In this document: positions 3,975 through 63,646 of the stretch, one piece after another
How the letters are laid out: every line of letters starts with the position of its first letter
How positions within the stretch are numbered: position 1 is the first letter of the stretch
NCBI GenBank assembly: GCA_947625915.1
Contig: CANQPX010000003.1
Coordinates: forward strand, 1-64,000
Direction of reading: 5' to 3'
DNA from: an uncultured Clostridia bacterium
GTDB lineage: Bacteria; Bacillota; Clostridia; Oscillospirales; Ruminococcaceae
Length of the DNA stretch: 64,000 nt
Translations under genes and position numbers: made by a program
The notes under the pieces: model-generated
What the model saw: only the letters and a program-made list of their open reading frames with translations
Database searches by the model: none
Told to the model about the DNA's origin: nothing

Positions 3975-4313
3975 AGTCTGTCGAAAAAGTATTTGTAAAA
4001 AATATGTTTGTTTGAAAACGGACTGTTTATAAAAACAAATTGCTCTTTATTGCAAAACAGCTCACCGGGCTGTTTTGCAAGACTTAAATGGTATAATCCG
4101 TTAATACCAAGGGGGCGCCCTCTATCGCAGGGCAGCCCCCTCTTTACGCCTAACGGCGTAAATTCACCCCTTGCGGAGCTCCTAAAGGCATTAGGGGATT
4201 TCGCCATCTGCGGATGGCGACAAGGGGTTTCACCCCTTGACCCCACCAGCGCGGCTGCGCTGGACCAGCTTTTCGGGCGAAGTTTTGTTTTTCGTTTTTT
4301 AGTTTGTCCGCGC
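3975..4313 (+). repeat. Structured intergenic repeat element, copy 1
   Basis: Shares conserved blocks (AAAACAGCTCACCGGGCTGTTTTGCAA, CCAGCGCGGCTGCGCTGGACCAGCTTTTC, ATTCACCCC) with three other intergenic copies. Confidence 0.85.
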
Positions 4314-4316
4314 CTA

Positions 4317-5744
4317 TTATTCCTCAAAGAACGATTTGAATGCTTTGTATGTCATGTAAACGTCCGCTTTCGCAACTACCTCGTAAGGAGCGTGCATCGC
4401 CAGAACGGGAACGCCCACATCTATTACGTCCATGCCGAGATTTGCAAGATATGCCGCAACAGTTCCGCCGCCGCCAAGATCGACTTTTCCCAGTTCGCCT
4501 GTCTGCCAGATAATGCTGTTCTTTTCCATCAAAGCGCGTACGCGTCCTACAAATTCAGCCGAAGCATCGGAAGTTCCCGATTTGCCCCTTGCGCCCGTGA
4601 ACTTTGTTACCACAACGCCATGGTTCAGGTAAGCAGCGTTTTTCTTTTCCACAACATCGGGGAAAGTCGGATCGAACGCCGCGTTGACGTCTGCGGAAAG
4701 ACATTCCGTATTTGCGACCACATCTCTGCCCTTTGCACCGAAGCTGTCCGCAAGATCATAAAGAAAGTTTTTCAGATATGCGGAACAAAGTCCCGTATTT
4801 CCGTCACTGCCTGTTTCCTCCTTATCTGTAAGGCATACTACAGCAGTCTTTGAAACGCTGTTACAGCCGAGGATCGCTTCCAGCGCGGTATATGCACATA
4901 CTCTGTCGTCATGTCCGTAAGAACCGATAAGACTTCTGTCAAAACCGATATCCTTTGCCTTGAACGCGGGAACTGTTTCCAATTCCGCAGAAAGAAAATC
5001 CGATTCGATGATCCCGTATTTTTCGTGGAGCATAGACATAATGTTGAGCTTTACCTTTTCGCTGATATCGTCATCGCGGAAAGGTCTTGAACCAACGATA
5101 ATGTTAAGTTCCTCGCCCTTTATGCCCTCACTCAGAGTTCTCTTTACCTGCTCCTGTGCAAGGTGAGGAAGAAGATCGCTTATGAAAAATACCGGATCGT
5201 TTTCGTCCTCGCCTATCTTGACAGTGATTTTTGTACCGTCCTTTTTGATAATAACGCCGTGTATCGCAAGAGGTATTGTCGCCCACTGATATTTCTTTAT
5301 GCCGCCGTAATAGTGGGTCTTGAACAAAGCTACCTCATTATCTTCATAAAGAGGGTTCTGTTTCAGATCTATCCTCGGGGAATCGATATGCGCCGCCGCA
5401 AGGTGAACGCCTTTGCTGATATCCTCTTTGCCGATCACCGCAAGGATAACAGCTTTTCCGCGGTTATTGAAGTAAATTTTATCTCCCGCTTTAAGAGCCA
5501 TTCCCTTTGTGTATTCCTTGAAGCCTTCCTCCTTGGCAAGTTCTATGGCTGAAGCCGCAGCTTCTCTTTCAGTCTTTGCGCCGTTGAGGAAATCCTTGTA
5601 GCTTTCGCAGAAATCGTCACATTCCGAGGTCTGCTCCTCGGTCATGATAAGTCCCGCGTGTTTCTTTTCCATAAAGAGCTGTTCTTTCAGCAGCGCGGCA
5701 GGTGATTTTTCTTTTTCATTTGACATATAGAACGATCCTTTCAA
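4317..5744 (-). CDS. M18 family aminopeptidase
   Basis: 475 aa; 'LAAAHIDSPRIDLKQNPLYEDN', 'GSYGHDDRVCAYTALEAIL', 'DKEETGSDGNTG' motifs. Confidence 0.93.
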   Translation of the reverse strand: MKGSFYMSNEKEKSPAALLKEQLFMEKKHAGLIMTEEQTSECDDFCESYKDFLNGAKTEREAAASAIELAKEEGFKEYTKGMALKAGDKIYFNNRGKAVILAVIGKEDISKGVHLAAAHIDSPRIDLKQNPLYEDNEVALFKTHYYGGIKKYQWATIPLAIHGVIIKKDGTKITVKIGEDENDPVFFISDLLPHLAQEQVKRTLSEGIKGEELNIIVGSRPFRDDDISEKVKLNIMSMLHEKYGIIESDFLSAELETVPAFKAKDIGFDRSLIGSYGHDDRVCAYTALEAILGCNSVSKTAVVCLTDKEETGSDGNTGLCSAYLKNFLYDLADSFGAKGRDVVANTECLSADVNAAFDPTFPDVVEKKNAAYLNHGVVVTKFTGARGKSGTSDASAEFVGRVRALMEKNSIIWQTGELGKVDLGGGGTVAAYLANLGMDVIDVGVPVLAMHAPYEVVAKADVYMTYKAFKSFFEE

Positions 5745-19032: not shown

Positions 19033-20244
19033 ATGAAAAAGTTTATTATAGCAGCAATTTTGTCGCTTTCAATGCTTACTGCTTGCGCGGATACGGAAAC
19101 AGCCGAAGTTCCCGAAACTTCTGCCGAAGTCACCACCGCAAGCCAATCTGAAACAGAAAAAACCGCCGAGGAAACAGCTGCAGCAGAGGAAACAATTACC
19201 ACCGAGGAAACCACAACTTCCAAAGAAACAACCACTGCCGAAAATGTCGATCATATTATTATACAAGGTGTGGAATATTCCACAAGTCTTACCGAGCTTG
19301 ATCTATTTAAAAAAAATTTGACTAATGAAGATATTAAAGACCTTGATAAAATGACTAATTTAACACATTTAGACTTGAGTTCTAACCAAATCAGCGATAT
19401 AAGTCCGTTAAAAGATCTGACTAATTTAACATATCTGAGATTGAATAACGATAAGATCAGTGACATAGAGCCGTTAAAGGATCTGATCAATTTAACGTAT
19501 CTGGACTTGTGTACCAATCAGATCAGTGATTTAAGCCCGTTAGCCGAGCTGACTAATTTAAAAGAATTGTTATTGGAGTACAACCGGATCAGCAATATAG
19601 ATCCGTTAAAAAATTTGACTAATTTAGAAGAATTATGGTTGTTTAAAAATCAGATCAGCGATATAAGCCCGTTATCCGGTCTGACTAATTTAACAGAATT
19701 GCATTTTGGTCAAAATCAGATCAGTGATATCAGTCCGTTAGCTGATCTGCCTAATTTAACAAGATTGTTATTGGAGTACAACCAGATCAGCGACATAAGT
19801 CCGTTAGCTGATCTGCCTAATTTAACGGATCTGAGATTAGATAAAAATCATATCAGCGATATAAGTCCGTTAGCTGATCTGAATAGTTTAACAGATCTGA
19901 AAATGAAAAACAATCAGATCAGTGATATAAGTCCGTTAGCTGATTTGGCTAATTTAACATATTTGAGATTGGATAACAATCAGATCAGTGATATAGACCC
20001 ATTAGCTGATTTGACTAATTTAACATATTTGAACTTGGGCGACAATAAGATCAGCGATATAAGTTCGTTAAAGGATATGACTGATCTAACAGATTTGGAC
20101 TTGGGTGGAAATCAGATCAGCGATATAAGCCCGTTAAAGGATCTGACTAATTTAACATATCTGGTTTTGAAAGAAAATCAGATAAGCAATAATGATATTG
20201 CAGAATTAATTAAGTCATTTCCAGATGGTACAATAATTTTTTAA
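19033..20244 (+). CDS. Leucine-rich-repeat (internalin-like) lipoprotein
   Basis: Lipobox 'LSMLTACA', Thr/Glu-rich linker, then tandem 22-aa LRRs 'LTNLTYLDLxxNQISDISPLKD'. Confidence 0.92.
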   Translation: MKKFIIAAILSLSMLTACADTETAEVPETSAEVTTASQSETEKTAEETAAAEETITTEETTTSKETTTAENVDHIIIQGVEYSTSLTELDLFKKNLTNEDIKDLDKMTNLTHLDLSSNQISDISPLKDLTNLTYLRLNNDKISDIEPLKDLINLTYLDLCTNQISDLSPLAELTNLKELLLEYNRISNIDPLKNLTNLEELWLFKNQISDISPLSGLTNLTELHFGQNQISDISPLADLPNLTRLLLEYNQISDISPLADLPNLTDLRLDKNHISDISPLADLNSLTDLKMKNNQISDISPLADLANLTYLRLDNNQISDIDPLADLTNLTYLNLGDNKISDISSLKDMTDLTDLDLGGNQISDISPLKDLTNLTYLVLKENQISNNDIAELIKSFPDGTIIF

Positions 20245-20273
20245 ATGATCTTTTCTGACAGGTTCTTAATAAA

Positions 20274-39917: not shown

Positions 39918-39928
39918 TAACGCAGGAA

Positions 39929-39950
39929 GAGACAGGCGAAAGCCTGTCTC
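39929..39950. terminator. Hairpin after AI-2E gene, left flank of repeat copy 2
   Basis: GAGACAGGC-GAAA-GCCTGTCTC. Confidence 0.7.
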
Positions 39951-39952
39951 CT

Positions 39953-40300
39953 CAGTTTGTCGATAAAGCATAATAATAGTTCATTGTCAAACAACGGATA
40001 ATTTTTTAGAAAAACAAACTGCTCTATATTGCCAAACAGCTCACCGGGCTGTTTGGCAAGGCTTATATGGTATTAATCGTTAGTGCCAAGGGGAACGCTC
40101 TCTCTTGCAGAGCGTTCCCCTCTTGCCGCTTGCAGCGGCAATTCACCCCTTTGCAGAGGCGCCTTCGTAAGGGGAATTTCGCCATCTGCGGATGGCGACC
40201 AAAGGCTCTGCCTTTGGAAACCGCCAGCGCGGCTGCGCTGGACCAGCTTTTCAATTTTGCGCTGCGCGCAAAATTGTTAAAAACTTTTTTGACAAACTTA
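39953..40300 (+). repeat. Structured intergenic repeat element, copy 2
   Basis: Shares conserved blocks and hairpin order with copies 1, 3 and 4; ends are inverted (CAGTTTGTCGATAAAG vs CTTTTTTGACAAACTT). Confidence 0.85.
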
Positions 40301-40302
40301 AA

Positions 40303-40331
40303 GGAGACAAGCTTTCGCCTGTCTCCTTTTT
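40303..40331. terminator. Hairpin + T-run, right flank of repeat copy 2
   Basis: GGAGACAAGC-TTTC-GCCTGTCTCC-TTTTT; reverse complement of the left-flank hairpin apart from 1-2 positions. Confidence 0.7.
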
Positions 40332-47930: not shown

Positions 47931-49727
47931 ATGGACGCAAATATACTTGACACCATTGCTTCCGAAGTCAACAGCGGAGTGTTCTCCATATGGTATCTTA
48001 TAGGAGCGGCACTGGTATTCTTCATGCAGGCTGGCTTCGCAATGGTAGAAACAGGCTTCACAAGAGCCAAAAACGCGGCTAACATCATCATGAAGAACCT
48101 TATGGACTTCTGTATAGGTGTTCCGATGTTCATTCTGATAGGTTTTGGACTTCTCATGGGAGAAGATGTTCTGGGATTTATCGGAAAACCCGGTTTTGAC
48201 ATTTTCACAGCATATGAAAATTTCGACTGGTCATCATTCGTATTCAATATGGTTTTCTGTGCAACTACGGCGACTATCGTTTCCGGCGCAATGGCTGAAA
48301 GAACAAAGTTCCTTTCATACTGCGTATATTCGGGCGTTATAAGTGCGCTGATATATCCTATCGAAGCACACTGGATCTGGAACCCCGATGGCTGGCTCGC
48401 ACAGCTTGGTTTCCATGATTTTGCGGGTTCATGCGCTATCCATATGGTAGGCGGTATCTCTGCTCTTATCGGCGCAAAGATCCTTGGTCCACGTATCGGT
48501 AAGTTCGTTACCGACAAAAAATCCGGCAAGGTAACTAAAGTAAATGCTATCCCCGGTCACTCACTTACACTCGGCGCACTGGGCTGCTTCATTCTCTGGT
48601 TCGGTTGGTACGGATTTAACGGTGCTGCCGCAACAACTCCCGCGCAGCTTGGTTCTATCTTCCTTACAACAACTGTCGCTCCTTCCGTTGCAACGGTGGT
48701 ATGTATGATATTCACTTGGATAAAGTACAAAAAACCTGATGTTTCAATGTGTCTGAACGCGTCTCTTGCAGGACTTGTAGGAATAACCGCAGGCTGTGAC
48801 GTTATGGACGCGGCAGGTGCCTGCGTAGTCGGCGCGGTATCGGGTCTGCTGGTAGTATTCGGCGTATGGCTCCTTGACCATGTACTTTACATCGACGACC
48901 CTGTAGGTGCGGTTGCGGTACATATGATGAACGGCATATGGGGAACAGTTGCTGTAGGACTTCTTGCAAACCCCGCAGTTCCCGAATACGGTATCGCAAA
49001 CAAAGCAGGCGAAACCATAGGCGGTCTGTTCTACACAGGTAATGCTGAACTTCTCGGCTTACAGTGCCTTGGTGTACTGACAGTTGCAGCATGGACAGCA
49101 GTTGCTATAACGATAACATTCTTAATTATAAAAGCAACTATCGGTCTCCGTGCTTCCGTTGAGGAAGAAACAAGAGGTCTGGATATCACAGAACACGGTC
49201 TTGCTTCTTCTTATGCAGACTTTATGCCTGCTCTTAATGCAAACAATATCGCAGTATTTACAGGAGCAACAACTTCCGAAACAGCTCCCGCACCTGTTGC
49301 TGCGGCAGTTCCCGTAACAGTTTCGGAAAGACCTCATATAGAGAGACTTTCCGACGCAAAGAACAAGTATACCAAAGTTTCCGTTGTCTGCAAACAGAAC
49401 AAGTTTGAAGATCTCAAACGTGAACTCGGCGATATCGGCGTAACAGGTCTGACGGTAACTCAGATACTCGGCTGCGGAACTCAGAGAGGCGCAGGAGAAA
49501 TGTACCGTGGTGTTCCCGTTGAAACGACGCTGCTGCCTAAGGTAAAGGTAGAAGTAGTTGTCTGCAAAGTTCCTGTTGAGACGGTAGTCGAAGCCGCAAG
49601 AAAGGCATTGTATACCGGTCATATCGGCGACGGAAAGATATTCGTTTACGATGTTGAGGACGTAATAAGAGTAAGAACAGGCGAAAGCGGTTACGATGCA
49701 CTTCAGGACGCCGAAGAAGATCAATAA
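47931..49727 (+). CDS. amt: Ammonium transporter fused to a C-terminal P-II (GlnB/GlnK) domain
   Basis: Amt motifs ('GFAMVETGFTRAKNAANIIMKN', 'HDFAGSCAIHMVGGISALIGA') followed by P-II ('VTGLTVTQILGCGTQRGAGEMYRGVPVETTLLPKVKVEVVV...GHIGDGKIFVYDVEDVIRVRTGE'). Confidence 0.95.
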   Translation: MDANILDTIASEVNSGVFSIWYLIGAALVFFMQAGFAMVETGFTRAKNAANIIMKNLMDFCIGVPMFILIGFGLLMGEDVLGFIGKPGFDIFTAYENFDWSSFVFNMVFCATTATIVSGAMAERTKFLSYCVYSGVISALIYPIEAHWIWNPDGWLAQLGFHDFAGSCAIHMVGGISALIGAKILGPRIGKFVTDKKSGKVTKVNAIPGHSLTLGALGCFILWFGWYGFNGAAATTPAQLGSIFLTTTVAPSVATVVCMIFTWIKYKKPDVSMCLNASLAGLVGITAGCDVMDAAGACVVGAVSGLLVVFGVWLLDHVLYIDDPVGAVAVHMMNGIWGTVAVGLLANPAVPEYGIANKAGETIGGLFYTGNAELLGLQCLGVLTVAAWTAVAITITFLIIKATIGLRASVEEETRGLDITEHGLASSYADFMPALNANNIAVFTGATTSETAPAPVAAAVPVTVSERPHIERLSDAKNKYTKVSVVCKQNKFEDLKRELGDIGVTGLTVTQILGCGTQRGAGEMYRGVPVETTLLPKVKVEVVVCKVPVETVVEAARKALYTGHIGDGKIFVYDVEDVIRVRTGESGYDALQDAEEDQ

Positions 49728-49760: not shown

Positions 49761-49796
49761 AACAGTCCCGCGCAGATATTTCTGCGCGGGACTGTT
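49761..49796. terminator. amt terminator hairpin, left copy (U-tract replaced by repeat element)
   Basis: AACAGTCCCGCGCAGATATTTCTGCGCGGGACTGTT followed by CAGTTTGTCGA. Confidence 0.8.
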
Positions 49797-50108
49797 CAGT
49801 TTGTCGATACGAATTATTTTTTGGAAAAATCAATTGCTCTTTATTGCAAAACAGCTCACCGGGCTGTTTTGCAAGGCTTAAATGGCAACAACCGTTAATG
49901 CCAAGGGGGAAGCCCTCTATCGCAGGGCTTCCCCCTCTTTACGCCTGCGGCGTAAATTCACCCCCTGCGGAGCTCCTAAAGGCATTAAGGAATTTCGCGC
50001 TCTGCGGAGCGCGACAATGGGCTCCGCCCCTTGACCCCGCCAGCGCGGCTGCGCTGGACCAGCTTTTCGGGCAAGGTTTTGTTTTTCGCTATTTAGTTTG
50101 TTCGCGCC
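49797..50108 (+). repeat. Structured intergenic repeat element, copy 3
   Basis: Same ordered hairpins and conserved blocks as copies 1, 2 and 4. Confidence 0.88.
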
Positions 50109-50132
50109 TACTTTTAGTTTTTCGGCAGTCAA

Positions 50133-50172
50133 AACAGTTCTGTGCATATATTTCTGAGCAGGACTGTTTTTT
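50133..50172 (+). terminator. Second diverged copy of the amt terminator hairpin, right of repeat copy 3
   Basis: AACAGTTCTGTGCATATATTTCTGAGCAGGACTGTT-TTTT: 30/36 ungapped match to 49761..49796. Confidence 0.8.
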
Positions 50173-53840: not shown

Positions 53841-53853
53841 CGAACATGATCGA

Positions 53854-53886
53854 AAAGCAATTTTGCGCTTTGCGCAAAATTGCTTT
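53854..53886. terminator. Terminator-like hairpin after the GH74-like gene, left flank of repeat copy 4
   Basis: AAAGCAATTTTGCGC-TTT-GCGCAAAATTGCTTT followed by CAGCTTGTCGATAAAGC. Confidence 0.75.
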
Positions 53887-54221
53887 CAGCTTGTCGATAA
53901 AGCATAATATAGTTTGTCGTCAAGCAACAGATTTTTTGGAAAACAAATTGCTCTGTATTGCAAAACAGCTCACCGGGCTGTTTTGCAAGGCATAAATCAT
54001 AATAACCGTTAATACCAAGGGGAACGCTCTCTCTTGCAGAGCGTTCCCCTCTTGCAACCTTCGGTTGCAATTCACCCCTTTGCAGAGGCGCCTTCGTAAT
54101 GGGGATTTCGCCATCTGCGGATGGCGACAAGGGGTTTCACCCCTTGACCCCACCAGCGCGGCTGCGCTGGACCAGCTTTTCGGGCAAAGTTTTGTTTTTC
54201 GTTTTCTAATTTGTCCGCGCC
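53887..54221 (+). repeat. Structured intergenic repeat element, copy 4
   Basis: Same ordered hairpins and conserved blocks as copies 1-3. Confidence 0.88.
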
Positions 54222-54331
54222 GATTTTTTAGTTTTTTGATAATCTGAATTTTTTAGAATTTACCTACCCTTTCCCGCATATAATTAATAATAATAATAAT
54301 AATATCGAATTTTATTGCGGGAGAAAATAAA

Positions 54332-57546: not shown

Positions 57547-60021
57547 TTACCTATTCTCCGCGATATAGTTTGAAACGCGGTTCTGGATTATCTCTGCAAC
57601 GTCCTTGGCGGACTTTTGTCCCTCAAAGAAAGCTCCCGCTTCTTCGTTGATGATCGTAAGTGCCTGCTGATCGTAACGTCCGGAATTGTTTACCGACTTT
57701 ATAAAGTCCATCATTCTCTGATTGTCCGCATCGGTATTTACCGGGATAGGTATACGCTCTTCTCCGAGCCAGTAATAATTGTCATATTCCTCTTTTGTTC
57801 CGTCATCGTTCAGCCAGTAAGGCTTCTCCTTGTACGATTCCGCCTGCTTTTCAAGTGAAGAGATCTTTACGGGGAATGTGTATGAATTTCTTGTTGAAAG
57901 CAGATCCTGAAAATCATCGGAATAGAAATATTTTACAAAATCCCATGCACCGTCAGCGTTTTTAGCCTTAGAGGTTATTGCCATAGACGTATCCGCATTG
58001 ATAACAGAGCCGTTACCTTCGCTTGTGGGATAACCCTTAACTGTTATCGGCTCGCCGAACGTACCTGTTTCTTGCTGAACAAAGAAATCAAAGCTTGAAA
58101 CATATGCCTGACTGAGAAGCGCTCTGTCCTCTCTGAAACGGCTTTCATACTCGTTCCAATAATTCGGATCCATATCCATCGCCGAGTCGTCCTCATATTC
58201 CTTGGGGAACTTGTTGCAGAATTCAAGCAGATTGATAAACTCGTCCGTATTGAACTTGCACTCGCCTGTTTCCTTGTTGATAAAGTTTGAACCGTTATAA
58301 TAGATCATATTCTGGAGCATAGACGCTTTTGTTCCCCATCTGTCGCCGAATACCTGATCTACGGACTCGGTATTCTCCTCACAGAACTTGATAAATTCTT
58401 CCATTGTCCAGCCGCTTTCGGTTCCGACTTTGGAAGTCTTGCCCACAAGTGTATTTATAGTAAAGTTCGGAACGACTTCATACAGTTTTCCGTCGGTCTC
58501 ATAAGCCTCGAAAACATTCTGCAAGTAATCTTCGCGGTTGAAGGTTTCGTCCTTATCCATAAAATCATACAGATTTGCAAGCAATCCCTTTGAAATATAG
58601 CTGTCGACAGGGAGCTGGCTGTCTATAACAAGGATATCCGGCAGATTTCCCGCGATCATATCATTATTCAGTTTTGTAACAGCATCATCATAGCTGTTTA
58701 CTACATAATCCTGATAGGAAGTGAGTTCTATCTCATATTCGGTGCTGTTCTTGTTGTATTCCAGTATCTGACGTTTTATAGCTGTATCAAGATAGATAGC
58801 ATACATTTTGATGAGTTTCTTATCGGGGATATCTGCGGGATCGACTTCGGTAAGGATATTTACTACCTGATCGTCGCTGCTCCAACTGTAACCGCCTCCG
58901 CCGTTCCAGTCATAATCATAGGTTATGAGGAAAATTCTTCCGTCAGGCAGAACGCTTATTCCTGTCGAAGTATCCATAGCAGTCGTGTCAATGCCTGATT
59001 TCAGCCAGTCAACTATCGTCTCGGTAGTATCAGTCTCTATATCGTATGCCGCAAGTCCCGAATCTCTTGTAAGGAGAAGATCGTACTTGTCCGTACCGTT
59101 CATAAGTGAACCGTTGGCGGTGTAAGGATATTCCGTGCCTAATTTTCTTCCGGCAACATCTATTTCAACAAGTTTTGACTCGGAAGTATAAATTTCGCCT
59201 TCCATCTTACTTGTAGTCACCACAGTAAATATCCTGCCGTCACTTGTTTTATATGCGCCGTTCATCCATGTATTGTCATTTACGGCTTCGTTCTTGATAG
59301 TTCCAAGCAGATCGCCCTTGTCATTTGTAATGAAAATAGATGAATTACAAGGCAGGACGAAAGTTCCGTCGTCTGCTTCAACGATGTTCCTGAAATAAAT
59401 ATACTCATCTTCCGAAGCATTAGCTGTGAGCTTTTCAAGGCTGGCTTCGGAAATTTTGCTGCCGTCCTCGGAACTGTACCTTGAAATATAGAACGTTTCT
59501 TCCGACTCACCTGTTTCCATGTCCCAATTGTTATATTGTTCAAGGAAAATAAGGTCGCCGTTATTAGCAACGATGATATTTGTTATCCAACGGCTCCCGT
59601 CGCTGTTTGACTCGTCGGAAAGCACGATCTCTTTAAGAAGGTTTCCTTCCATATCGACTATCTGCATTTTTCTTTCGCTGTGCCAGAATGTTTCCTCTGC
59701 GGGTACAGCGGCGTCGTCCGTACCAACGTCAGTAACGACTATCTCCTCTGCGTCAATAACTTCATCTGTGCTGCCGTCTGTTGTATCATCATCGTACGGG
59801 ATAGTATCCTCCCAACTATTTTCACCGATAATAAACAGTTTATCGTTGCTGTAGATCACTTGTTGTCTGTAGGTCATACCTTTCGGGAGTTCAATTATCT
59901 GTGAGGAATAGACGTGCTCCTTTGAAGCTATGACATCTTCGCTCTTGCCGCAGGAGGAAAATCCCACAGCCATTGCTGCAGCCATTACCGCAGCAGTTAT
60001 TCTTGATGTTAACTTATTCAT
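57547..60021 (-). CDS. Lipoprotein: N-terminal propeller-like region fused to an extracellular solute-binding domain
   Basis: Lipobox 'AVGFSSCG'; C-terminal SBP-like region 'YEIELTSYQDYV...LPDILVIDSQLPVDSYISKGLLANLYDFMDKDETFNREDYLQNVFEAYE'. Confidence 0.82.
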   Translation of the reverse strand: MNKLTSRITAAVMAAAMAVGFSSCGKSEDVIASKEHVYSSQIIELPKGMTYRQQVIYSNDKLFIIGENSWEDTIPYDDDTTDGSTDEVIDAEEIVVTDVGTDDAAVPAEETFWHSERKMQIVDMEGNLLKEIVLSDESNSDGSRWITNIIVANNGDLIFLEQYNNWDMETGESEETFYISRYSSEDGSKISEASLEKLTANASEDEYIYFRNIVEADDGTFVLPCNSSIFITNDKGDLLGTIKNEAVNDNTWMNGAYKTSDGRIFTVVTTSKMEGEIYTSESKLVEIDVAGRKLGTEYPYTANGSLMNGTDKYDLLLTRDSGLAAYDIETDTTETIVDWLKSGIDTTAMDTSTGISVLPDGRIFLITYDYDWNGGGGYSWSSDDQVVNILTEVDPADIPDKKLIKMYAIYLDTAIKRQILEYNKNSTEYEIELTSYQDYVVNSYDDAVTKLNNDMIAGNLPDILVIDSQLPVDSYISKGLLANLYDFMDKDETFNREDYLQNVFEAYETDGKLYEVVPNFTINTLVGKTSKVGTESGWTMEEFIKFCEENTESVDQVFGDRWGTKASMLQNMIYYNGSNFINKETGECKFNTDEFINLLEFCNKFPKEYEDDSAMDMDPNYWNEYESRFREDRALLSQAYVSSFDFFVQQETGTFGEPITVKGYPTSEGNGSVINADTSMAITSKAKNADGAWDFVKYFYSDDFQDLLSTRNSYTFPVKISSLEKQAESYKEKPYWLNDDGTKEEYDNYYWLGEERIPIPVNTDADNQRMMDFIKSVNNSGRYDQQALTIINEEAGAFFEGQKSAKDVAEIIQNRVSNYIAENR

Positions 60022-60119: not shown

Positions 60120-61340
60120 AGGGGGGCTTTAGTTTGCTTTTCTTGATTTTTTATTTTGTTTATAACCCTCTTTTTGAGTTTTTGGGGCAAATTTAAAAGT
60201 GACGAAGTTTGCTTTTCTATTAAAAGCATAGTAAAAATTTTTTCGTTTTTTTCCTGTGATGGGGCAGACAACCATAAGGGACGGGGAAACCCGAGCGGGG
60301 TGGGTGGGAGACGGTCGGTGGGGTTCTTTAGTTCGCTTTTCTTAATTTTTTATTTTGCTTATAACCTTCTTTTTGAGTTTTCGGGGGACAGAACCTTTAG
60401 GGAAGGGAGAACCCGAACGCGGGGCGCTTTTAATAAAAGCTTAGTAAAAATCTTTTCGTTTTTTCTTGCGAGGGGCAGACAACCATAAGGGACAGGGAAA
60501 CCCGAGCGCGGGGGCTTTTAAGAACGCTGTTCTTATCCTTTATTTTGTTTAAATCTCTTAGTTTTATGTTTCGGGGGACAGAACCTTTAGGGAAGGGCGA
60601 ACCCGAGAAATTAACGGGGACGCTCGCACGGGTTCTCCCTTCCCCTGCGGTTCTGTCCCCCGAGCCCCCTACTCCCCAACCCTATCCCTCTCCACGCTCG
60701 CTATGCTAAAGCTAATATTATATAAAAGGCTTTTTAGTACTCTTGAACGGAGATTGCGTTGGCTACGGGTTCCTTAGTTTAGCTTACCTTAGTACGAGCG
60801 TTCTAATATTAGATGAAAATTAAAGAAGAATAGTATTTCTAAACAATATAATTTCTTTTTTGGAGTCCTTTCCCGTGTAGAACTCTATAATTGTTGAATA
60901 TCAAACTAACAGTAGAACTCTCTTACCAAGATAAACAAAACTAAGGGTCACTGTTGACTCCACAAATTTTGTTATAGAAATCTAAAAAATCTTTTCTATA
61001 ATCTCTACTTTAGGATAGCGAGCGTGGAAGGGGAAAGGTTGAAGGAAAGTGGGGAGCGCGAGGGGAGAAAAACTAAGGGAAGGGGAAAACCGTGCGAGCG
61101 CCCATAGGGGCGGTCGGGTTTCCCCTTCCCTTATGGTTGTCTGCCCCTCGCATGAATTGGCAAAAAGGGTTATATTCAAAATAAAATATAAGAACAGCGT
61201 TCTTAAATGCCCCGTTTGGGTTCTTCCTTCCCTGAAGTGTCATCCCCCCCCGAACAATTTGGCAAAAAGGGTTATATTCAAAATAAAAAATCAAGAAAAG
61301 CAAAATAAAGAACCCCACCGACAACTCCACTCTCAACTCC
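60120..61340. repeat. Large imperfect palindrome with nested direct and inverted repeats, non-coding
   Basis: Arms around 60313-60711 and 61008-61330 are reverse complements in the same unit order; innermost arms CCACGCTCGCTATGCTAAAG / CTTTAGGATAGCGAGCGTGG (19/20). No credible ORF. Confidence 0.85.
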
Positions 61341-61378: not shown

Positions 61379-63646
61379 TTAAAACTGCTCCGCTAAATAG
61401 TTCGCCGCTCGGTTCTGAATGATCCCCGAAACTTCTTCCGCAGACTTCTGCCCCGAAAAATATGCCCCCGCTTCTTCTCGTACAATGTCGTAAACATAAC
61501 TGTTGTAACTGCGGATCTCTGTAAGCGAATTTATAAAATTCATCATTCGTTCGTTGTCCTCATCGGTATTTGGCTCGGCAGCAGACCTGCCGGAAAAACT
61601 TTCAGCGTCCGCGCTCAACTTTGCACTTGCAGCAGCACGTTCCAGAACGGATTTTTTTACAGGGAAATTATAACTCTGCGCTCCGAGATATTTTGATTGG
61701 TATTCATCAGACCAGAAATATTTTATAAATTTCCACGCACCTTCGGGAGCTGCCGCTTTTGATGTTATTGCAAGGGAAAAGTCCTCCGAAATAAACGAAC
61801 CGCTGCCGCCGCAGGGATAACCTTTGAACGTCACACTTTCGCCGAAATCAGTCTGTTCAAGTGTTTTTATGTCACGGAAACTTCCGATAGTTGTTGTCAT
61901 GAGCAAAGTCCTGTCCTCACGGTATGCACTCTGTTCGGAAGAAAAATCAATTTTGTCTTTGCTTACGGTCTTTTCGGGAAATCTGCCGCAGAAATTTAAC
62001 AGCTTTACAAAATCATCGCCGTCAAAATAACATTCTCCCGTTTTTGCGTTCATATAACTTCCGAAATTAAATGACATGAAAGTTAAAAGCATATTCATTT
62101 TAGAACACGATGTAGTCTCAAAAAGTCCTTGCCATGAACCGTCCGAAGCATTTTCGTCCGCAAATTTTATGAACTCGTCCATTGTCCAGCCTTGGGAACT
62201 GCCGACTTTTGAAGTTTTTCCCACAAGCGTCTGTATGCTGAACCCCGGAACAGCCTTGTAAAGTTTTCCGTTTGTTTCATATGCCTTGAAAATATTCTGC
62301 AAATAATCCTCTTTATGAAAGTCCGCATCGTTGTCCATAAAATCGTAAAGATCTGCAAGCAAGCCTTTTGCGGCATAGCTTTCCGCAGGCATAGAACCGC
62401 TTATCGCAATTATGTCGGGAATATTCCCCGAAGTCATTTCCATATTCATTCGCGAGAGCTTGTCCTTATAATCGCCTGATGTATCATAAAAGTCGGTAAG
62501 TTCTATATAATATTCGCTGCTGTTTTTGTTTAGATCGGTTATTGCACGTTTTACATCTGAATTTACAGCAAGCGCATAAATTTTAACAAGTTCTTTATCG
62601 GGTATCTTTTCGGGCGGGATCTCGGTAAGCACACACGCCGAAAGATCCAATGCCGAATAAAAACCGCCGCCGTTAATATTTTTCACCGTAAGAATTATCC
62701 TGCCGTCGGGAAGTACCGTTATGCCGTTTTCCGCGGAAACAGAGCCTGCGTCTATTCCCGAAGCGGAAAGGTCAATAAAAGTCAGCATCTCTTTATTTTC
62801 GATATCGTAAGAAAAAATTTTTGTGCTGCCGAGAATGAACATATCATATTCGCCGCAGCCGCTTATTATTTGTCCCGAAATATCAGCGGAAATTTCCAAC
62901 GGTAAAATTCCCGCATCAGTAATTTCCGCAAAACTTCTGCTGCCGCTCGGATCGGAATATTCAGCAAATATCCTGCCGTCTCCCGCTTTTATAACATTAT
63001 CAAAATATTTATCCGCACCGCCCGAAATTTTTCTCACGGAATTTTCATTTGCTGAATACAAACTGCCGTAAAACGTCATGAAAAGCGTTCCGTCATTTGA
63101 AACTGCTGCGGAAGTAATATATAAACTCCGCTCCCCTGTTTCATTCGTAATATTTTCAAGACTTGTTTCGGAAAGTTTATTGCAGTTTTTATCATATTTC
63201 ACCATAAACGGAGACGTTTCGGAATTTTCAACCGTAAGAAAACCGTCTCCGAAAATTGCGGCATATTCAATAAAACGCTGTCCTTCCGACTCTGAAAGGA
63301 TTTCGACCGTATTTTCAAGTTTTCCGTCAAGAGAATATGTAAGGAGCTTTCCGTCCGCAGCGGCAAAAATTTTTTCGCCGTCCGAAAAAACTCCGCTCAC
63401 AGGCTGCATCCCGCTTGAAATATTTATGTTTTCCGCTGAAAAAATATTCTCCTTTGAAGCAATTTGTCCGCTTTTATTTTTTTCCTCTTTTTTTGCGGAA
63501 AATATCCCGCCTTTTTCTTCTGCGGCGGAAGATATATTTCCCGAAATATCTCCGCTGTTCGCGTCTGTTTTGTTACAAGCGGAAGATCCCGCTGCAATTA
63601 ACGCAGCAAGCACTGCTGCCGCCGATCTTGAAAAAAATTTTTTCAT
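61379..63646 (-). CDS. Paralogous propeller-like + solute-binding lipoprotein
   Basis: Lipobox 'IAAGSSACN'; colinear with 57547..60021 ('GNIPDIIAISGSMPAESYAAKGLLADLYDFMDNDADFHKEDYLQNIFKAYETNGKLYKAVPGFSIQTLVGKTSKVG'). Confidence 0.82.
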   Translation of the reverse strand: MKKFFSRSAAAVLAALIAAGSSACNKTDANSGDISGNISSAAEEKGGIFSAKKEEKNKSGQIASKENIFSAENINISSGMQPVSGVFSDGEKIFAAADGKLLTYSLDGKLENTVEILSESEGQRFIEYAAIFGDGFLTVENSETSPFMVKYDKNCNKLSETSLENITNETGERSLYITSAAVSNDGTLFMTFYGSLYSANENSVRKISGGADKYFDNVIKAGDGRIFAEYSDPSGSRSFAEITDAGILPLEISADISGQIISGCGEYDMFILGSTKIFSYDIENKEMLTFIDLSASGIDAGSVSAENGITVLPDGRIILTVKNINGGGFYSALDLSACVLTEIPPEKIPDKELVKIYALAVNSDVKRAITDLNKNSSEYYIELTDFYDTSGDYKDKLSRMNMEMTSGNIPDIIAISGSMPAESYAAKGLLADLYDFMDNDADFHKEDYLQNIFKAYETNGKLYKAVPGFSIQTLVGKTSKVGSSQGWTMDEFIKFADENASDGSWQGLFETTSCSKMNMLLTFMSFNFGSYMNAKTGECYFDGDDFVKLLNFCGRFPEKTVSKDKIDFSSEQSAYREDRTLLMTTTIGSFRDIKTLEQTDFGESVTFKGYPCGGSGSFISEDFSLAITSKAAAPEGAWKFIKYFWSDEYQSKYLGAQSYNFPVKKSVLERAAASAKLSADAESFSGRSAAEPNTDEDNERMMNFINSLTEIRSYNSYVYDIVREEAGAYFSGQKSAEEVSGIIQNRAANYLAEQF

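Follow-up and report, generated by a model that had tools for sequence, protein, structure and literature searches.

An IS1182-family MITE appears to have inserted into the intrinsic terminator of an ammonium transporter gene (amt) and, in doing so, to have duplicated the whole terminator hairpin. The repeat lies in the window (the whole stretch of DNA analysed, 64,000 nucleotides) and belongs to a Ruminococcus-like genome of 2.1 Mb in 73 contigs. We consider it very probable that the repeat is a non-autonomous IS1182-family MITE, presumably mobilised in trans, and that the hairpin sets its target duplication. This reading draws on the repeat family and its ends, the duplications and their division into two length classes, an empty site, and full-length IS1182 elements that behave alike, all as read from sequence. 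An earlier note on this DNA had proposed that the element inserted into an intrinsic terminator and duplicated the entire hairpin; the proposal is supported by locus-specific direct duplications throughout the family, by the empty site of one sister copy and by full-length IS1182-family elements. The amt locus contains the following features:

47931 to 49727, + strand: amt, ammonium transporter fused to a C-terminal P-II (GlnB) domain, 598 aa (Pfam PF00909 and PF00543)
49761 to 49796, + strand: left hairpin copy (target site duplication), AACAGTCCCGCGCAGATATTTCTGCGCGGGACTGTT, no U-tract
49797 to 50132, + strand: the MITE insertion (336 bp), which lacks a transposase gene and is strongly structured as RNA
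49797 to 49812, + strand: left terminal inverted repeat (TIR), CAGTTTGTCGATACGA; family consensus CAGYYTGTCGAWAAAG
50117 to 50132, - strand: right TIR, ending ...TTTTTCGGCAGTCAA; family consensus CTTTTTCGACAGTCTG, with the last two bases off-consensus in the amt copy
50133 to 50168, + strand: right hairpin copy, AACAGTTCTGTGCATATATTTCTGAGCAGGACTGTT, followed by TTTT

The target hairpin is located at the 3' end of amt, whose protein has its nearest named relatives in Oscillospiraceae, Ruminococcus and other Clostridia MAGs; the fused amt/P-II form is matched over almost its full length in many relatives. Both 36-mers were located where the earlier note had placed them, and they agree at 30 of 36 positions in direct orientation without gaps, as it had counted, vs 28 in inverted orientation. 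The left hairpin has a perfect 16-bp stem and, as also claimed, runs straight into the element, the next bases being CAGTTTGTCGA; it lacks a U-tract because the element adjoins it directly. The right hairpin had been described as followed by TTTTTT. A run of six T does exist (50167-50172), but just four of them lie beyond the 36-mer, the other two being the last two bases of the stem. Local alignment of the flanks of the amt copy scored 25, while the best mismatched flank pair of the same family reached 21.5 (n = 2450, mean 7.6). Predicted folding energies were -31.8 kcal/mol (z -9.8) for the left hairpin and -14.4 kcal/mol (z -4.3) for the right one. The changes between the two hairpin copies include 6 double and 8 wobble changes and 0 broken pairs; this count of compensatory changes was set aside as evidence of selection because the consensus structure came from these two sequences themselves, a procedure that masks broken pairs.

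The inserted repeat is one of at least 82 copies in the host genome, mostly 300-440 bp long, identified with a profile (length 369) built from 14 clean copies and counted when at least 200 profile positions were covered. The number is a lower bound because the stretches searched were those surrounding known element or TIR matches. Both ends are kept in 50 of the 82 copies, and the sequence recurs in 19 of the 20 congeners searched. With up to one mismatch, the 16-mer TIR CAGYYTGTCGAWAAAG (first letter Y) was found at 90 genomic places, vs 4 for a reversed control pattern. The repeat is thus short, multicopy and without a transposase gene, and it carries terminal inverted repeats and target site duplications, the features of a MITE. 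A second subtype, with AATTTTGCGCTGCGCGCAAAATTG ahead of the right inverted repeat, was noticed in L033, L038, L040, L041, L042, L046, L048, L049 and the window copy at 39953-40299. TIRs also occur within about 200 bases of the ends of contigs C3, C30, C36, C40, C60, C66 and C72, and the repeat therefore seems to break the assembly.

Target duplications were assessed with an anchored ungapped test, in which the TIRs fix the ends and the flanks of each copy are compared with 643 mismatched pairs from other copies. A direct repeat at both ends exceeded the 99th percentile of the mismatched pairs in 32 of 81 copies; the same test gave no significant duplication in the remaining 49, which we tentatively put down to erosion. 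Among the 50 copies with both ends intact, 11 had own flank pairs scoring 20 or more, vs 1 of 2450 mismatched pairs. The duplications fall into two classes. Those of the long class (17-37 bp), to which the amt copy belongs, correspond to a whole terminator hairpin, with the feet of the stem mostly 0-1 nt from the edges of the duplication, and several are exact (L097, 30/30; L108, 28/28; L110, 27/27; L026, 22/22; L050 and L112, 21/21 each). Those of the short class (7-14 bp) are mostly AT-rich and without a hairpin (L101, 11/11; L132 and L095, 9/9 each; L022 and L104, 8/8 each). One short duplication, in L034 (9/9), represents the 5' arm of a hairpin; on the right side, that hairpin is present in full. 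Comparison of the flanks across copies bore out the earlier observation that other copies have left-flank hairpins of unrelated sequence, and it added a point absent from the earlier note, namely that many of these copies, too, stand between duplicates of a hairpin of their own.

Three further copies of the repeat lie in the window:

3975 to 4320, + strand: sister copy with an eroded right end; the left flank hairpin, GAACAGGGGGAAATTTTCCCCCTGTT, directly adjoins the TIR
39953 to 40299, + strand: sister copy between convergent genes; hairpins at 39927-39952 (AAGAGACAGGCGAAAGCCTGTCTCCT, left) and 40302-40327 (AGGAGACAAGCTTTCGCCTGTCTCCT, right)
53887 to 54246, + strand: sister copy with a hairpin (53853-53886) directly left of the TIR and no duplicate of it on the right

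The right hairpin of the copy at 39953 matches its left hairpin at 24 of 26 positions when inverted and at 20 of 26 when direct; the corresponding values for L035 are 25/28 and 22/28. These two copies (39927-40327 in the window, and L035) give the impression that one palindrome was flipped once the element had inserted. The left-flank hairpin of the copy at 53887 resembles the AATTTTGCGCTGCGCGCAAAATTG right end of the second MITE subtype. Other repeats in the window include an array of a 66-nt periodic repeat at 19352-20245 (at least 10 overlapping copies, 65-72% identity), which is probably a coding repeat, clustered direct repeats, G-rich and T-rich and 56-79 nt long, at 60121-61291 (motifs CCCGAGCG and GGCAAAAAGGGTTATA), and a pair of 42-nt direct repeats, 74% identical and 3.8 kb apart (58372-58413 and 62150-62191).

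An empty site was recovered for L031, a copy between convergent genes that is flanked by the duplication agagcaccgtcaaacgatgctct / agagcatcgtcaaacgatgctct. At the corresponding locus of congener G016 (C40), the flanks are contiguous and 85-88% identical, and exactly one hairpin, aagagcatcgtaaattcaaaacgatgctcttt, is present; the filled site has two hairpins and the empty site one. For amt itself, no syntenic empty site was found among relatives. The amt DNA of close congeners is 87-89% identical, the readable amt genes of the genus have a single 3' hairpin of other sequence, and the downstream gene differs. The window copy at 39953, L097 and L101 were rejected as empty-site cases, their congener flanks not being contiguous.

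Neither an IS1182 transposase nor any other DDE_Tnp_1 transposase was found in the host genome (assembly 89% complete). A DDE_Tnp_1 search in the genus first identified an element of about 1.49 kb in congener G012, encoding, between ends resembling those of the MITE, an IS1182 transposase (NF033551, E 3.8e-117) with DUF772 and DDE_Tnp_1_6 domains. Its left end abuts a hairpin, the contig stops at its right end, and this right end, CAGCTTGTCGAAAAAG, is present as an identical 16-mer at several places in the host genome. The MITE thus shares its ends with an element encoding an IS1182 transposase. No internal similarity between MITE and IS was seen, and the link between them consists of the TIRs and the target habit.

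The same target habit was found in full-length IS1182-family elements with TIRs of this kind. From 394 genomes of the order and a plasmid collection, 18 distinct elements of one transposase clade were obtained with both flanks readable; in the tree, the 24 rows of this clade are grouped at 97/96 support. A locus-specific hairpin is duplicated at both ends in 13 of the 18, mostly letter-perfect over 19-31 bp, in Clostridia as well as Bacilli. These comprise L152, L154, L258, L260, L268, L276, L280 and L281 within the order, and plasmid elements of Sutcliffiella (30/30), Peribacillus (24/24), Enterococcus casseliflavus (19/19), Lactococcus (20/20) and Acetoanaerobium (24/24). The other five (L259, L267, L317, L320, L322) have a different, terminator-like hairpin abutting each end. 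They are a point against duplication of the hairpin, requiring recombination between copies or another route; they may well stem from recombination between copies, and one genome among these cases holds four identical copies. More distant members of the family with other ends (L156, L273, L274) have no duplicated hairpin.

Several other explanations for the paired hairpins at amt were weighed against insertion with hairpin duplication. The gene might have had two tandem or convergent terminators beforehand, with the element landing between them. Tandem terminators are common in general, and a syntenic empty amt site that would exclude this directly is the one thing the relatives do not supply. 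Pre-existing tandems, however, cannot give rise to recurrent copy-specific hairpins that match at up to 30/30 and abut the TIRs exactly; the sole true empty site (L031) has a single hairpin, and unrelated full-length IS1182 elements show the same arrangement, all of which makes this explanation very improbable. We regard as scarcely more credible that the second hairpin was gained after insertion, by recombination or gene conversion. Palindromes do rearrange later, as the right hairpins of L035 and the window copy at 39953 indicate by being closer to the inverted left hairpin, but exact duplications stop precisely at both TIRs in many independent copies, and the outcome is the same in apparently young IS copies, for example in three of the four in G234.

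Also considered was an origin as a retroelement, or as something akin to a group IIC intron, with terminator stems as its target. Group IIC introns insert beside terminator stems, and the element shows a high degree of RNA structure (z -5.9). Against this, its TIRs are common to a DDE insertion sequence and it makes target duplications. Rfam searches returned no RNA family: there was no match in the window at the gathering threshold, and none to group II introns around the amt copy at a lax threshold. Neither an Rfam-recognisable intron structure nor the absence of a target duplication, as would mark a group IIC intron, was observed, and we give this origin practically no credence. The most serious competitor concerns the form of the target at the moment of attack: the palindrome might be read as duplex DNA, for example with one transposase subunit per arm, giving a stagger of variable width with no hairpin extruded. 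A palindromic duplex does present two equal half-sites, and an extruded and an unextruded target would look alike in sequence. Yet the duplication tracks the feet of hairpins that differ in sequence and loop length (about 21-37 bp), and with 7-14 bp also used in non-hairpin DNA, a fixed protein ruler offers no simple explanation. Reading as duplex is therefore a minority option, although one that deserves to be taken seriously.

Our preferred reading, in which the hairpin sets the target duplication of the MITE, may be pictured as follows. DDE transposases join the two 3' ends of the transposon to opposite strands of the target, and gap filling duplicates the stretch between. Here, an IS1182-family DDE transposase would act in trans on the MITE and would favour hairpin-forming intrinsic terminators as targets. 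Each foot of the hairpin would receive one 3' end, the two joins being on opposite strands, and the single-stranded stretch then filled in on each side would be the whole hairpin. The length of the duplication would follow that of the hairpin (17-37 bp) and no fixed ruler, and in AT-rich targets lacking a hairpin the same elements would leave 7-14 bp. At amt, the expected outcome is two terminator hairpins: the one ahead of the element has no U-tract, and the one beyond it has. We also favour, with less assurance than the assignment of the repeat itself, the view that in this IS1182 clade an extruded DNA hairpin dictates the width of the stagger, the feet of the cruciform being attacked so that the duplication is as long as the hairpin and the host terminator is copied, not broken.

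The gene context is in keeping with terminators as the target. For the 73 copies with both neighbouring genes called, the neighbours are convergent in 34, tandem in 33 and divergent in 6; divergent placement is rarer than the 25% expectation (one-sided p 0.0002). It was found in 0 of 21 long-duplication copies vs 4 of the 11 with a short duplication (Fisher p 0.009). Ten long copies are approached by a gene from the left; in these, the 10 nt at the hairpin end contained on average 6.7 T at the right copy and 3.8 at the left copy. A transcript arriving from the left would be expected to pass the near hairpin and the element and to terminate at the far hairpin, and it is plausible that the far-side hairpin is a working terminator at amt.

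Targeting of hairpins and terminators by IS1182-family elements has been published, as has an IS1182-related MITE with 4-bp repeats (PMC4923244; PMC5678879; PMC11578231). IS1272, a member of the family, targets hairpins and terminators (PMC4923244) and deletes its hairpin, other feet being attacked so that the hairpin is lost; duplication of a whole hairpin has been drawn as a hypothetical alternative only, in Fig 13, pathway b (PMC5678879). The present data, as far as sequences can tell, are what pathway b predicts (PMC5678879). The repeat resembles IS1272 and TnSha1 of staphylococci in the transposase family of its presumed partner, in its TIRs of about 16 bp, and in the targeting of hairpins whatever their sequence, including, for the staphylococcal elements, confirmed transcription terminators (PMC4923244; PMC5678879). 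With IS1272 and TnSha1, the hairpin is lost in part or entirely and no duplication results, whereas here the hairpin is likewise the target, deletion without duplication is not seen, and the whole hairpin is duplicated. MITEPye1 of Paracoccus yeei is also a MITE with ends resembling those of the IS1182 family; it differs in being 159 bp long, in having 1-3 copies per chromosome and in its 4-bp direct repeats, and the passages of the report that describe it make no mention of hairpin targets (PMC11578231). The outcome of insertion is accordingly not uniform in the family, because IS1272 deletes its hairpin and the Paracoccus IS1182-related MITE is described with 4-bp repeats (PMC5678879; PMC11578231).

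Our literature searches on IS1182 MITEs and hairpin duplication returned no report of whole-hairpin duplication, and we therefore regard the duplication as a new variation on published hairpin and terminator targeting. ISfinder lists variable direct repeats for IS1182, and its curators may know of variable repeats. Long target duplications that vary from copy to copy are also made by IS1549 and IS1634, which share this variation with the present elements and differ in belonging to another transposase family; to our knowledge, their duplication length has not been described as set by a hairpin. Group IIC introns likewise use intrinsic terminators as a benign insertion target, but they are ribozyme-based and have no TIRs and no target duplication, both of which the MITE possesses.

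Most DDE transposons make target duplications of near-constant length, set by the enzyme; here, the length follows the secondary structure of the target, in MITEs and full-length elements and in Clostridia and Bacilli. These elements offer natural cases of a stem-loop-duplicating pathway that had until now only been drawn as a possibility for IS1272, and many ready-made substrates for testing structure-directed transposition. Annotators should be aware that, where two matching terminators flank such a repeat, they are a target duplication. If the hairpin does dictate the stagger, the element would come to lie between two hairpins within the 3' untranslated region of the adjacent genes, and the host terminator would be copied, not broken; insertion would then be nearly neutral, which would account for a genome of 2.1 Mb holding more than 80 copies and for the spread of the repeat at gene ends without destruction of terminators.
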